Of a stretch of DNA of 64,000 bases, positions 16,793-26,152 are shown piece by piece. Every line of letters starts with the position of its first letter. Position 1 is the stretch's first letter. The notes under the pieces are model-generated. The model did no database searches. It saw nothing but the letters and a program-made list of their open reading frames with translations, and was not told where the DNA came from. Origin of the DNA: Bidens hawaiensis (taxonomy: Eukaryota > Streptophyta > Magnoliopsida > Asterales > Asteraceae); NCBI GenBank assembly GCA_021521415.1, contig JAIQDT010000841.1:558001-622000 (forward strand), read 5' to 3'. Position numbers and translations under genes: made by a program.

Positions 16793-17723
16793 TGAAGAAA
16801 CACTAACCAGACCCCAGCCAGATTACTGGTAACCTGGGGGTTGGAGAGATGTTTCCCACGAGGGGTTAGACCCTTGGAAGATGGTTCTTCTGATAACCTG
16901 CAAAACAGACACCGTGAGCTCGTCACTGAGAAGGGGGGGGGTTCCTCCTTGTGACCACCCTCCGGCGTGAGAATCAGACTAGATTGCTCTTTAAATATAA
17001 AAGTATATTAAGAGATTGCTAGAGCAGATATCAGGTATAATATGATGATAATGTAGTCAGATATGATCATACCATTTGTGGTATTTATAGCCGAAGGTAG
17101 GTTTCCAAGGGGTTTAGCCGGCCCAACACGCTACCAACTGTAACCTATGCACGTGCCCTGCCTGTGAGTGGTGAATAGGTAGCGGCTGACACAGAGCAGG
17201 CGTGTCGTGCACTCTTCCTCTTCTGCCAACTACAGGCTAGGCACGTGGTATGGCAGGAGTTGGTGGGTAGGCGGCGGCTATTGGTCACAGTGCTGTGGCG
17301 TGCTGTCTGCCATGCTGTTGTCAGTGAGCTGTCGCATTCTTGGTCAGATCTTTTGTCTGTACCTCGTCAGGTATCACACAAAAGATCCTCCATCATACGG
17401 ACTGGCTCATTTAGGCGGGAGTTTTCCCCCTCCCGCCTTTGCTCATTCCTTCAGGTGACACTGGGGAGAGTTAAGTGCCTAGTGCGTGTAGCCATGCTGC
17501 GCGGGTGGCCTTCCCTCATGGCTTGTATCCGAGGCTGCGGGAACAGGCGGAGTCCTTCACCATGGGAGGCATTTCCTGCGGGACCAGCTTGCATACTGCG
17601 CGTAAGGACGTCACTTCTCTGAGCATGGTTGGTCCTGCGGATCCAGTTGGTCTCTGCGCAGACGTCCCTGTTTAAGGTGAGTCTTGCGGGTCCAACTGGG
17701 CTCTGCTGGGACCTACCTCTTCA
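16793..17723 (-). repeat. 3' LTR of the Tat-like element
   Basis: Nearly identical to 25222-26152. On the minus strand a TATA-like CTATAAATAC lies at 17081-17090 (25510-25519 in the other LTR). The open frames inside both LTRs (e.g. 17245-17622) are identical because the LTRs are, and look non-coding. Confidence 0.95.
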
Positions 17724-17736
17724 AGTCCCCCCAGTC
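17724..17736 (-). other. Polypurine tract of the Tat-like element
   Basis: Read on the minus strand, ctGGGGGGActt lies directly against the 3' LTR. Confidence 0.6.
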
Positions 17737-17882
17737 CAATGTTCTTCTCATGCGTGTTTAATAAAGTGAGGTGAACTTTTGGACTTAAAAAGGGTTTTGA
17801 AAAGGGTTTTGTAAGGTTTTCCATGGGAAGTCCTTGTCACTTGCAGAAATGCCCGAGTTTCCTGCTTGGTCTTTGGGTATGA

Positions 17883-18070
17883 TGCGGGTAGGTCTGTAAC
17901 CTCCTCGCAGGTCAGGAGCATTGAGTCCCAGTTGTGTGGATTCTCCATGAGGTTTTGGTAGTTTTGAACATAGTGATCAATTATGTTAAAACCACCAATT
18001 CCATCCTGGAGCTTCAAACAACGTAGTTCTCGACGTTCCCGCTATGCGGGGATGTTATTTCCTTTTCCGC
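17883..18070. repeat. Segment shared with the LTR of the chromovirus array
   Basis: This internal stretch matches 35724-35904 (and the equivalent places in the other two chromovirus LTRs) with interspersed differences. Shared blocks include tgcgggtagg, gattctcca, catagtgatca(a/g)ttatgtt, aattccatc(c/t)tggagcttca and atgcgggga. Confidence 0.75.
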
Positions 18071-18100
18071 AAGCATTGCCCAGAAGATCCTTCTTGGTTT

Positions 18101-18580
18101 CAATTCCCAGCGGAGCGCTAGGTATGTGAAGGGTTTTGCCTTAACACTGTACCTGCGCTCGTCTTACGGTTACTTTACTTCCAAGGTATTCCTGGCGTCA
18201 ATTCCCTGCGGGTGCTAGGTATGTGAAGGGTTTTGCCTTTACACTGTACCCGCACCTGTCTTATAGTTACTTGGTTGCCGAGGTACTTGGCTTCAATTCC
18301 CTGCGGGTGCTAGGTATGTGAAGGGTTTTGCCTTAACACTGTACCCGCATCCGTCTTATGGTTACTTGTTCGCCAAGGTTTTCTTGGCTTCAATTCCCTG
18401 CGGGTGCTAGGTATGTGAAGGGTTTTGCCTTAACACTGTACCCGCATCCGTCTTATGGTTACTTGTTCGCCAAGGTTTTCTTGGCTTCAATTCCCTGCGG
18501 GTGCTAGGTATGTGAAGGGTTTTGCCTTAACACTGTACCCGCATCCGTCTTATGGTTACTTGTTCGCCAAGGAAAGGGGG
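18101..18580 (+). repeat. About five ~97-bp tandem repeats
   Basis: The anchor caattccc recurs at 18101, 18199, 18294, 18391 and 18488. Each unit contains gctaggtatgtgaagggttt and ends near gccaagg. A T-run follows at 18595-18619. It lies between the 3' LTR and the antisense gene. Confidence 0.9.
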
Positions 18581-23400: not shown

Positions 23401-23697
23401 GGCATATTAGTGTCCAGAAAAGTATAAATGTAAAATCATCAGCTTCGATGTTCTAGAGAGAATCATTTCCATTAGAAGTGGCTCTTGGCCTTTTCTTTAC
23501 AAATTGGAATTGATTTACATGCAAACTGTGTAAATGAGCTCCCTTCCATGTTGTTGGGATGGGAGCGCCATCGAGCCGACACGCACCTGTTTCGGGATCT
23601 CGTTCTTTACGCAGCATGTAGTCTCTATTGAAGCTGATTTTTTATTCGTGTTTACCCCAGCCGTGGTTCTACACGCACCTGCCTGCCTGCTTAGCTT

Positions 23698-25152
23698 TTA
23701 TTTCGCCACGAGGTGCGCGAGCGTCCCATCTCTGACGAATGTTTCGACCATGTCTTTTACGTCTATGCATTCTTCAGTGTTGTGGCCTTTTGTTCTGTGA
23801 TAGTCACAGTACTTGCTCCGATCAGCATCGTGACGATGTCGGATTTCTGGAGGCTTTGGCCATGGGAGCTCTTCAGTAGCAAATATGTCAGTGACGCTTT
23901 TGGTAAGTGGCGTCCATCTGGGGTTCCGGTGCGGCTTTACATTATCCCTTTCACCCAATCGGTGCTGTAAGCCGGATGAGGTGTCAAAGTTTACCCTTGA
24001 CTGCCAAATGCCTTGCTTCCGTTTTTTGTTCAATCGGGCGGTGAGGACGTTGTCCTCTCTCGTCCTCTGGGTGTAAAGGTTTGTGCTCTGCGGAAGGTCT
24101 CTACCCAGTTGCTTCTCCGTTTCCGCATAGCGTTTGGCTGCTGTCATGATGCCATCCCATGTGGATGGCATTCCATCTTTACCCGTTAGGGTCCGGATAA
24201 GCTCTGGGTCCTGCGCGCCCTGGATGAAGGCTGCGCGAACAAGATCCTCGCTGATATTGCCCAAACTTAACTTCTTTGAGTTGAAGCGAGTGATGAAGTT
24301 TGGCAGAGATTCATCTTCTTCCCGTGTGCATTTGAGGATTGTCCATTGCTCCTCGGTATACTTTCGCTGCTGGCTGAAGTGTTGGCTAAACTTCTGCTGG
24401 AAGTCTGCCCAGTCGTAAATGTGGTTAACCGGTAAACGATCAAACCAAGCCCTAGCGGCCCCCACCAGCGTCATTTGGAACATGTAACACCACGTGGGTT
24501 CCGTCCAATTGCTAACGGTTGCCCCCGCTATGAACCTGTTCAAATGGTCGTCTGGATCAGATAGGCCGTCATATGTGCCTATGTTAGGCATTTGTTTAGC
24601 ACTCTTCGGGGCAATTGCTTCAGCAATGTCCCGTGCAAATTTGGACGTTCCTGCATTTGTAACGTTTGGTCTGAACGTTTTAGAGAAGTCTCGTGGACTT
24701 CCATCTATGCTTTTTGGTTTGAAGGCTTGTCCAAAATGCCTTTTCGGTTGGGTTTCCGTTTCTTTACGCTTCCCTTTTGCCTTATGACGAGGGTTCGCGT
24801 CGGAGTCGGATTCCTCCGAGTCATCCTCCCAGTATTCGAATTCGTCGGCCTGTTGCACGGAACGCAAGCGTTCGTTCAACTCAGCCTGGAGTTCCTTTTG
24901 TCGTGCCTCCGCCCATGCCTTGACTTCGTCGAGAGTCTGGCGGGGGAGTCTTCGTTTTTCAAACTGGGTATCGGTGGATCCCAGTAGGCGGTCATTTACT
25001 GCACTTGCCCCTGCTTTAGTAAGTGGGGTAGTGTTCGTAAAATTTACTTCACTTGCTCCGGCTTCGGTAGCCGGAGTAGTGTTTGTAAAAACTGTGTTGC
25101 CGGTATTCCCCCCAATAGCTGGGGTTGTGGTTACCGGAATTTCTCTAACCAT
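23698..25152 (-). CDS. gag: Gag of the Tat-like element
   Basis: I start at the ATG at 25152 (MVREIPVTT). The frame is open further upstream to the LTR border but has no ATG there. The product is about 484 residues. A duplicated Thr/Ala-rich N-terminus and an acidic patch (EYWEDDSEESDSD) come first. A retrotransposon Gag domain follows (GAARAWFDRLPVNHIYDWADF, then FITRFNSKKLSLGNIS). Near the C-terminus a zinc-knuckle-like CDYHRTKGHNTEEC (residues about 449-462) has spacing C-X2-H-X4-H-X4-C, with His at the usual second Cys, as in many Tat/Athila Gags. The frame ends soon after, with no protease, so it makes a stand-alone Gag. No stop interrupts it. Confidence 0.88.
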   Translation of the reverse strand: MVREIPVTTTPAIGGNTGNTVFTNTTPATEAGASEVNFTNTTPLTKAGASAVNDRLLGSTDTQFEKRRLPRQTLDEVKAWAEARQKELQAELNERLRSVQQADEFEYWEDDSEESDSDANPRHKAKGKRKETETQPKRHFGQAFKPKSIDGSPRDFSKTFRPNVTNAGTSKFARDIAEAIAPKSAKQMPNIGTYDGLSDPDDHLNRFIAGATVSNWTEPTWCYMFQMTLVGAARAWFDRLPVNHIYDWADFQQKFSQHFSQQRKYTEEQWTILKCTREEDESLPNFITRFNSKKLSLGNISEDLVRAAFIQGAQDPELIRTLTGKDGMPSTWDGIMTAAKRYAETEKQLGRDLPQSTNLYTQRTREDNVLTARLNKKRKQGIWQSRVNFDTSSGLQHRLGERDNVKPHRNPRWTPLTKSVTDIFATEELPWPKPPEIRHRHDADRSKYCDYHRTKGHNTEECIDVKDMVETFVRDGTLAHLVAK

Positions 25153-25210
25153 CTTTTGTATAAAGTTTTGAAAAAAACTGGAGAAAATTGTAGTTCTAGC
25201 TTTATGCACG

Positions 25211-25220
25211 GATGGCGCCA
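25211..25220 (-). other. Primer-binding site of the Tat-like element
   Basis: On the minus strand TGGCGCCATC begins one base after the 5' LTR. The first seven bases match the complement of a tRNA 3' end GGCGCCA, as in tRNA-Asp, used by related elements; the match is short. Confidence 0.5.
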
Positions 25221-25221
25221 A

Positions 25222-26152
25222 TGAAGAAACACTAACCAGACCCCAGCCAGATTACTGGTAACCTGGGGGTTGGAGAGATGTTTCCCACGAGGGGTTAGAC
25301 CCTTGGAAGATGGTTCTTCTGATAACCTGCAAAACAGACACCGTGAGCTCGTCACTGAGAAGGGGGGGGGTTCCTCCTTGTGACCACCCTCCGGCGTGAG
25401 AATCAGACTAGATTGCTCTTTAAATATAAAAGTATATTAAGAGATTGCTAGAGCAGATATCAGGTATAATATGATGATAATGTAGTCAGATATGATCATA
25501 CCATTTGTGGTATTTATAGCCGAAGGTAGGTTTCCAAGGGGTTTAGCCGGCCCAACACGCTACCAACTGTAACCTATGCACGTGCCCTGCCTGTGAGTGG
25601 TGAATAGGTAGCGGCTGACACAGAGCAGGCGTGTCGTGCACTCTTCCTCTTCTGCCAACTACAGGCTAGGCACGTGGTATGGCAGGAGTTGGTGGGTAGG
25701 CGGCGGCTATTGGTCACAGTGCTGTGGCGTGCTGTCTGCCATGCTGTTGTCAGTGAGCTGTCGCATTCTTGGTCAGATCTTTTGTCTGTACCTCGTCAGG
25801 TATCACACAAAAGATCCTCCATCATACGGACTGGCTCATTTAGGCGGGAGTTTTCCCCCTCCCGCCTTTGCTCATTCCTTCAGGTGACACTGGGGAGAGT
25901 TAAGTGCCTAGTGCGTGTAGCCATGCTGCGCGGGTGGCCTTCCCTCATGGCTTGTATCCGAGGCTGCGGGAACAGGCGGAGTCCTTCACCATGGGAGGCA
26001 TTTCCAGCGGGACCAGCTTGCATACTGCGCGTAAGGACGTCACTTCTCTGAGCATGGTTGGTCCTGCGGATCCAGTTGGTCTCTGCGCAGACGTCCCTGT
26101 TTAAGGTGAGTCTTGCGGGTCCAACTGGGCTCTGCTGGGACCTACCTCTTCA
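25222..26152 (-). repeat. 5' LTR of the Tat-like element
   Basis: Same length (931 bp) and ends as 16793-17723, with one substitution seen near 26008. It is the promoter LTR for the minus-strand gag. Confidence 0.95.

Follow-up and report, generated by a model that had tools for sequence, protein, structure and literature searches.

We analysed a 64-kb stretch of the Bidens hawaiensis genome (hereafter the window, with positions counted from its first base), in which a complete long terminal repeat (LTR) retrotransposon occupies positions 16793-26152 in minus orientation. It carries gag and, on the opposite strand, a gene of five predicted exons; its features are listed in Table 1. An initial annotation of this DNA had described perfect target-site duplications (TSDs) and nearly identical LTRs, and both were observed: GTATG borders the two ends, and the LTRs differ at one of 931 positions. 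At a substitution rate of 1.3e-8 per site per year, which can be used for rough dating, this single mismatch would make the window copy about 40,000 years old. The primer-binding-site-like sequence starts with TTGGCGCC, a likeness of sequence that was also seen in L056, a pol-bearing relative in the same genome.

The gag frame on the minus strand was intact, as had been annotated, and comprises 507 amino acids (aa) when counted from a TTG or 484 from the first ATG. Its stop codon falls two residues past the part that could be aligned to Retand Gag, at about the start of protease. Identity was 43.6% over 335 aa to the Gag of L057, another relative in the same genome, and 27-36% to those of L053-L056; these relatives are called Retand by their TRP28 gene and pol order, not by a reverse transcriptase (RT) tree. 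As to pol, 44 frames of 40 aa or more were listed, and 10 of these, picked by hand, gave no significant Pfam match; no significant match of the element to the window's own chromovirus-like pol was observed. Against pol of the Retand relatives, the best match beyond gag was a short integrase C-terminal stretch (23578-23516, minus strand), and these 21 residues are all that resembles a Retand-type pol. Their score was reached by 0 of 1000 shuffles against L057 and by 85 of 1000 against L053. Taken alone, the stretch provides moderate evidence for a scar left by a deletion that removed protease and all but the last part of integrase. The earlier statement that all pol domains are lacking therefore stands as far as detectable domains are concerned, with the correction that an integrase-like scrap of pol seems to be left.

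The five plus-strand exons join into one 902-codon frame, with exons and junctions as first annotated (a gene of ~902 residues with four short introns of fitting phases). All four introns are GT..AG introns of 58-72 nt with 30-33% GC, and the exons have 54-61% GC. The longest frame in a spliced open reading frame (ORF) search was 2781 nt on the plus strand (with intron 2 retained) versus 609 nt on the minus strand, and 60 dinucleotide shuffles gave a maximum of 1245 nt and a mean of 730 nt. Because of this excess, together with AT-rich introns and GC-rich exons, the gene model is far beyond chance expectation. A candidate TATA box precedes the antisense start codon by 125-132 bp, and was retained in all eight copies whose stretch reaches it (L039-L043 and L045-L047; these copies are described below). 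The hydrophobic period of exon 4, as expected for a coiled coil, was reached by none of 500 shuffles, which were scanned on a coarser grid.

Table 1. Positions of the features of the element in the window
Feature	Position	Strand	Remarks
5' LTR	25222-26152	-	931 bp; 1 mismatch to the other LTR; TSD GTATG at 26153-26157
3' LTR	16793-17723	-	931 bp; TSD GTATG at 16788-16792
Primer-binding-site-like TTGGCGCCATCCGTGC	25206-25221	-	adjoins 5' LTR
gag, 484 aa from first ATG	23698-25152	-	PF03732, E 2.6e-10; zinc-knuckle-like C-X2-H-X4-H-X4-C near end (by inspection)
Integrase C-terminus-like remnant, 21 codons	23516-23578	-	counterpart of residues 593-613 in the L057 integrase ORF (613 aa), E 0.043
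Two diverged direct-repeat copies, 82%	22998-23385		repeat analysis
Tandem array, 4.9 copies of 152 bp	22239-22985		repeat analysis
Candidate TATA box TATATAAA of the antisense gene	18932-18939	+	kept in 8 copies
Exon 1, TRP28 / PF04195 domain	19064-19772	+	profile match; omega-like 0.12-0.13
Intron 1, 58 nt, phase 1	19773-19830	+	phase-1 intron 3-4 alignment columns off in L057, L053
Exon 2, low-complexity, basic stretches resembling nuclear localization signals (NLS)	19831-20346	+	NLS by inspection; basic stretches also in L057, P0001
Intron 2, 72 nt, phase 1	20347-20418	+	L057 has a phase-1 intron in the equivalent part, where alignment is poor
Exon 3, Pro/Ala/Ser/Thr-rich, no clear constraint	20419-20835	+	omega-like 3.3 for shared changes, 0.60 for singletons
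Intron 3, 69 nt, phase 1	20836-20904	+	none seen in L053, L057
Exon 4, coiled coil	20905-21638	+	hydrophobic period 3.53 residues
Intron 4, 70 nt, phase 0	21639-21708	+	same alignment column and phase in L057; absent in L053
Exon 5, conserved C-terminal part	21709-22041	+	aligns with L053/L057 C-termini
Tandem array, 5.0 copies of 97 bp	18091-18572		repeat analysis
Polypurine-tract-like ACTGGGGGGACT	17724-17735	-	by inspection

Comparison of exon 1 with PF04195, the family named for it in the initial annotation, gave a match (E 1.8e-5, 25.3 bits) just under the Pfam cut-off of 26.2, which was passed by the homologues P0001-P0003, L053 and L057. Four Asteraceae proteins (P0001-P0004) were homologous to the antisense protein; an alignment search with it returned P0001-P0003 and P0005, and P0001 aligned over exon 1 and again weakly (E 0.03) near the start of exon 4. 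The order of TRP28 domain, low-complexity part, 'VYVPxW' motif, coiled coil and C-terminal part is common to L053 and, less clearly, L057. No match was returned when residues 1-245 were the sole query of a protein search, no PDB sequence matched, no plant mobile domain was found in six TRP28 proteins, and no relatives were found among viral and prokaryote contigs. As far as sequence comparison goes, the gene is the antisense accessory gene with TRP28 (PF04195) that Retand elements carry, and not a unique acquisition. Antisense TRP28 ORFs were reported in 97% of clusters of recently active Retand elements in a 2025 survey (PMC11963269), and an antisense TRP28 ORF between pol and the 3' LTR in 23% of elements (PMC6317226). 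Like these, the element has such an ORF toward its 3' LTR, a gag related to Retand gag, and internal tandem arrays, which are present in about half of the elements called PRAREs; its 97-bp unit falls within the published range of 8-100 bp, and the 152-bp unit exceeds it. We classify the element as a pol-deleted derivative of Retand (Tat-clade Ty3/gypsy). A special acquisition of the antisense gene by this non-autonomous element is not supported: the gene is typical of Retand (PMC11963269, PMC6317226) and would have been inherited when pol was deleted.

The layout is shared by many copies. In the 3.47-Gb host genome, 88 best gag matches were scored, 87 of them without a stop codon, and the gag frame ended at 494-566 aa in all 88, so that none continues in frame into pol (this holds for the best matches, and pol in another frame would not show). 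Thirty of the 88, the window included, were read as loci. The integrase-remnant stretch adjoined gag in every one of them, and no Retand pol match was found in these 30 beyond the C-terminal part of gag itself. Unbroken alignment over 2236 bases, from the primer-binding site to 22986, was observed for 27 loci; the other three (L017, L022 and L036) aligned over part of this segment, and L017 and L036 continue in the element on a second look. A search with the LTR gave 41 matches (2612 first-look candidates, 40 scored), from which 16 pairs 7.8-8.5 kb apart could be formed, the window's included; in the C6709 copy the LTRs also showed 1 mismatch in 931. For gag, omega-like ratios were 0.09 for shared changes and 0.27 for singletons, values that are biased low as the window and 29 loci ranked by protein score were used.

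To characterize the antisense gene across copies, 10 copies were fetched, picked by hand among the 88 best gag matches (second half of the list) and hence selected for intact gag rather than for the antisense gene. One of them (L044) matched no part of the element and was dropped, leaving nine copies and the window; L040 was excluded from one protein alignment because of a frameshift and was kept in the counts of intactness, changes and pairs. Nine of the 10 fetched copies hold the gene, at a distance of 2.7-3.1 kb from gag, and it is intact in seven. GT..AG was retained in 36 of 36 introns. The net change of exon length was a multiple of three in eight of the nine copies, and intron lengths varied freely. 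The ratio of nonsynonymous to synonymous divergence (dN/dS) across copies, which the initial annotation had proposed as a check, was below 1 in 45 of 45 pairs (median 0.25), indicating that the antisense protein is kept by selection. This check thus came out in favour of the annotation's suggestion that the protein is useful to the element, for which it had named regulation, packaging or silencing evasion as possible roles. Mean dS was 0.056, near the intron divergence of 0.047, and the largest value, 0.114, would roughly correspond to 4 million years at the above rate.

The expected numbers of synonymous (S) and nonsynonymous (N) changes were then computed from the mutation type and cytosine context of each change. 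Shared changes were S53/N45 versus 30/67 expected (p 3e-6, omega-like 0.38), and singletons S58/N31 versus 28/60 (p 1e-10, omega-like 0.25); changes were treated as independent although the copies are related and recombining, so these p values are too small. The stop class contained one singleton (the stop of L046) and one shared change, which was taken as a codon-background artefact as no copy has a stop there. Exon 1 was the most constrained part (0.12 for shared changes, 0.13 for singletons), exons 2, 4 and 5 gave 0.42 and 0.27, 0.28 and 0.16, and 0.13 and 0.42, respectively, and exon 3 showed no clear constraint, its excess among shared changes being not significant (p 0.11). The antisense gene thus appears to be under protein-level purifying selection within a family without its own pol. 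An exon 4/intron 4 block common to L040-L043 differed from the window by ~5.5% in the exon and 16-20% in the intron, which suggests recombination between subfamilies.

Some of the predicted introns could be followed into the pol-bearing relatives. L057 carries RT, RNase H, RVT_3 (a second RNase H, deleted in the present element) and integrase in the domain order given for Ogre and Retand (PMC6317226), although several frames are needed to read its pol. It also has the same antisense gene, predicted to consist of four exons and three introns (67, 80 and 70 nt). Its intron 1 is of phase 1, three alignment columns from that of the window; its intron 2, also of phase 1, lies 44 columns away in a poorly alignable part; and its equivalent of intron 4 has phase 0 at the identical column. 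The family of L053 has RT and integrase. RVT_3 was not among the matches in the three frames of this family that were scanned, and the RVT_3 frame of L057 aligns to L056 at 49%. The long antisense ORF of L053 was considered as an intronless form, which was ruled out by an in-frame phase-1 intron predicted four columns from the window's intron 1; its donor and acceptor recur in the close relatives L055 and L056. Introns 2-4 were not predicted in L053, where the rest of the frame is continuous. Since one family has intron 4 in common with the window's family and two have intron 1, at about one-third identity in exon 1, the predicted splice sites are best explained by a spliced ancestral gene with later intron losses or gains. 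Intron 3 was seen only in the window's family, among this family and the two relatives examined (L053 and L057), and may be a recent gain; it has net insertions of ~46 nt in L042 and ~25 nt in L043. The initial annotation had argued that introns survive in a retroelement when the genomic RNA is the other strand, and the retained splice sites, some of them shared across families, are as expected from this.

On the basis of these results, we consider it probable that the element belongs to a young, pol-less, Retand-derived family that borrows pol and makes its own Gag and a spliced antisense TRP28 protein, a nuclear, family-specific factor. An internal deletion of a Retand element would have removed protease through nearly the end of integrase, and the family would move with RT and integrase supplied by a pol-bearing relative, while still producing its own Gag and TRP28 protein. 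The antisense gene would be transcribed from its own opposite-strand promoter and spliced in vivo, and its introns would survive retrotransposition because the genomic RNA is the other strand. With a TRP28 domain, basic stretches resembling nuclear-targeting signals, a long coiled coil and a conserved C-terminus, the protein may be a dimeric, nucleic-acid-associated nuclear factor that helps the expression or integration of copies of its own family. A nuclear role is favoured because the antisense protein of maize Grande is reported to be nuclear and to have its own promoter (PMC7264820), and because of the TATA box and the basic stretches of exon 2 here. We propose that pol can be borrowed across related families, whereas a match to the family is essential for the TRP28 protein and for Gag, by which the RNA is selected; this specificity would be the reason why Gag and the accessory protein, and not pol, were kept. 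A broader proposal, that the Retand antisense ORFs in general belong as exons to a single ancient spliced gene, and that its protein forms with Gag a home-made, family-specific core, the whole of pol being borrowable, is put forward tentatively, as we rate it slightly below an even chance.

Several observations weigh against the reading of a constrained gene in a family that borrows pol. The window copy itself is below the PF04195 cut-off, and structure prediction of exon 1 gave a mean pLDDT (predicted local distance difference test) of 37 and was not used. The E-value of the integrase remnant in the raw search is weak, and against L053 its score was reached by 85 of 1000 shuffles, which is not significant. 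L022 jumps from 23426 to 17977, so that 23425-17978, including the antisense gene and the repeats, has been lost between gag and the LTR; this locus is a further deletion derivative. Two of the nine antisense genes are broken, by the frameshift in L040 and a premature stop in L046. Recombination between subfamilies could bring in sequence that was selected elsewhere. The Gag of L057 is 44% identical to that of the element, and the pol donor was not found among the relatives. Finally, the promoter and splicing are predictions, and it is not obvious how selection on single copies would maintain a nuclear protein that acts in trans, whose family specificity is itself a proposal.

It could be argued that purifying selection acted in pol-bearing parents, and that the gene is useless to pol-less copies that are recent or fed by recombination. 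The exon 4/intron 4 block of L040-L043 points to such recombination, and autonomous and non-autonomous Retand groups coexist in Papaver (PMC12582370). We regard this explanation as unlikely, considering that the remnant adjoins gag in 30 of 30 loci, that the nine gene-bearing copies show the pol-less spacing, that singletons are as constrained as shared changes, and that no scored gag frame continues into pol, with the limits on best matches and other frames given above. Three further possibilities were set aside. That the antisense transcript rather than the protein matters, through double-stranded RNA or interference control, was raised for antisense ORFs in PMC7264820, and is very improbable here given constraint at the amino-acid level that differs by domain, from the strongly constrained exon 1 to the unconstrained exon 3. 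Even less credit can be given to mere youth, in which nothing keeps the gene and the copies had no time to decay: the window copy is indeed very young by its LTRs, but dS reaches 0.114 with nonsynonymous changes strongly depleted, and exon lengths, unlike intron lengths, show a net change by multiples of three in eight of nine copies. Capture of a host gene in antisense seems the most far-fetched: five exons and a TATA box resemble an ordinary gene, but at least two pol-bearing families of this genome have the same gene, identically placed and oriented, and so do Retand elements described before (PMC11963269).

Other parts of the window were also inspected. A gypsy element in tandem arrangement (LTR-internal-LTR-internal-LTR) was found at 33977-50503. 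Its LTRs measure ~2369 bp, it contains two gag-pol frames of 1506 aa, and its two outer ends are bordered by a single target duplication, GTAGT; by our reading it is chromovirus-like, with no chromodomain match. A part of its LTR (35721-35906) is 79% identical, on the same strand, to a 195-bp stretch in the 3' region of the present element (17880-18074), with a weaker inverted match as well, and this pair represents a small module common to different elements. At 5526-6245, matches to RT and RNase H mark a fragment of another gypsy polyprotein. The region 20-4181 is plastid-like, with long open frames for NADH dehydrogenase chain 6, a proton-translocating NDH subunit and a cytochrome c assembly protein, and would be either plastid DNA inserted into the nucleus or a join made in assembly.

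The function of Retand antisense genes was called unknown in PMC11963269 and PMC7264820. If the above reading is true, a pol-less family with an intact and constrained gene implies that the protein is of importance to the element apart from any enzymes, and pol-less families provide a natural experiment on which retrotransposon parts must be self-supplied and which are shareable. The spliced structure also shows the real protein, of which exon-by-exon ORF calls would clone a fragment. Retand elements and their TRP28 antisense ORFs are already known, as are non-autonomous elements with gag only and pairs that share gag, such as Cereba/Quinta (PMC11302176). As far as our searches of the openly licensed literature reach, three points are new: a pol-less Retand family with the antisense gene kept, evidence for protein-level selection on this gene within such a family, and a splice-aware gene model with introns common to Retand families.

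With the Retand lineage, the element shares the antisense TRP28 gene toward the 3' LTR, the tandem repeats there and a related gag (PMC11963269), and differs in the absence of pol and in the antisense gene being modelled as one spliced gene. The survey was baited with RT and hence was unable to sample pol-less families. It used ORF Finder and listed ORFs separately. Further antisense ORFs bear the names of SMC, polymerase III gamma/tau and similar domains, and seem to resemble exons 4 and 2-3 here. Because these exons encode coiled-coil and Pro/Ala-rich stretches, we infer that several of the listed ORFs may be exons of one gene; the word 'intron' does not occur in the survey, and no report of introns in Retand antisense genes was found among openly licensed papers. 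The non-autonomous Retand Group I sublineages of Papaver retain mainly GAG and PROT only (PMC12582370), whereas PROT is absent here. The wheat system of Quinta with Cereba (and Sabrina, WHAM) is similar in that an element keeps gag without RT and integrase and is believed to depend on an autonomous partner. Quinta has in addition a domain of unknown function, which shares an ORF with gag and does not lie in an antisense spliced gene, and Cereba is a centromeric retrotransposon with the CR motif, not a Retand element (PMC11302176). In maize Grande, the antisense accessory gene (gene23) is reported to have its own promoter and a nuclear product (PMC7264820), a likeness by description. Finally, TR-GAG elements have the same non-autonomous layout of two LTRs flanking gag with no other retroelement domains (PMC9784723), but gag is their sole coding region, whereas the element described here also retains a 902-codon antisense gene that appears to be under selection.

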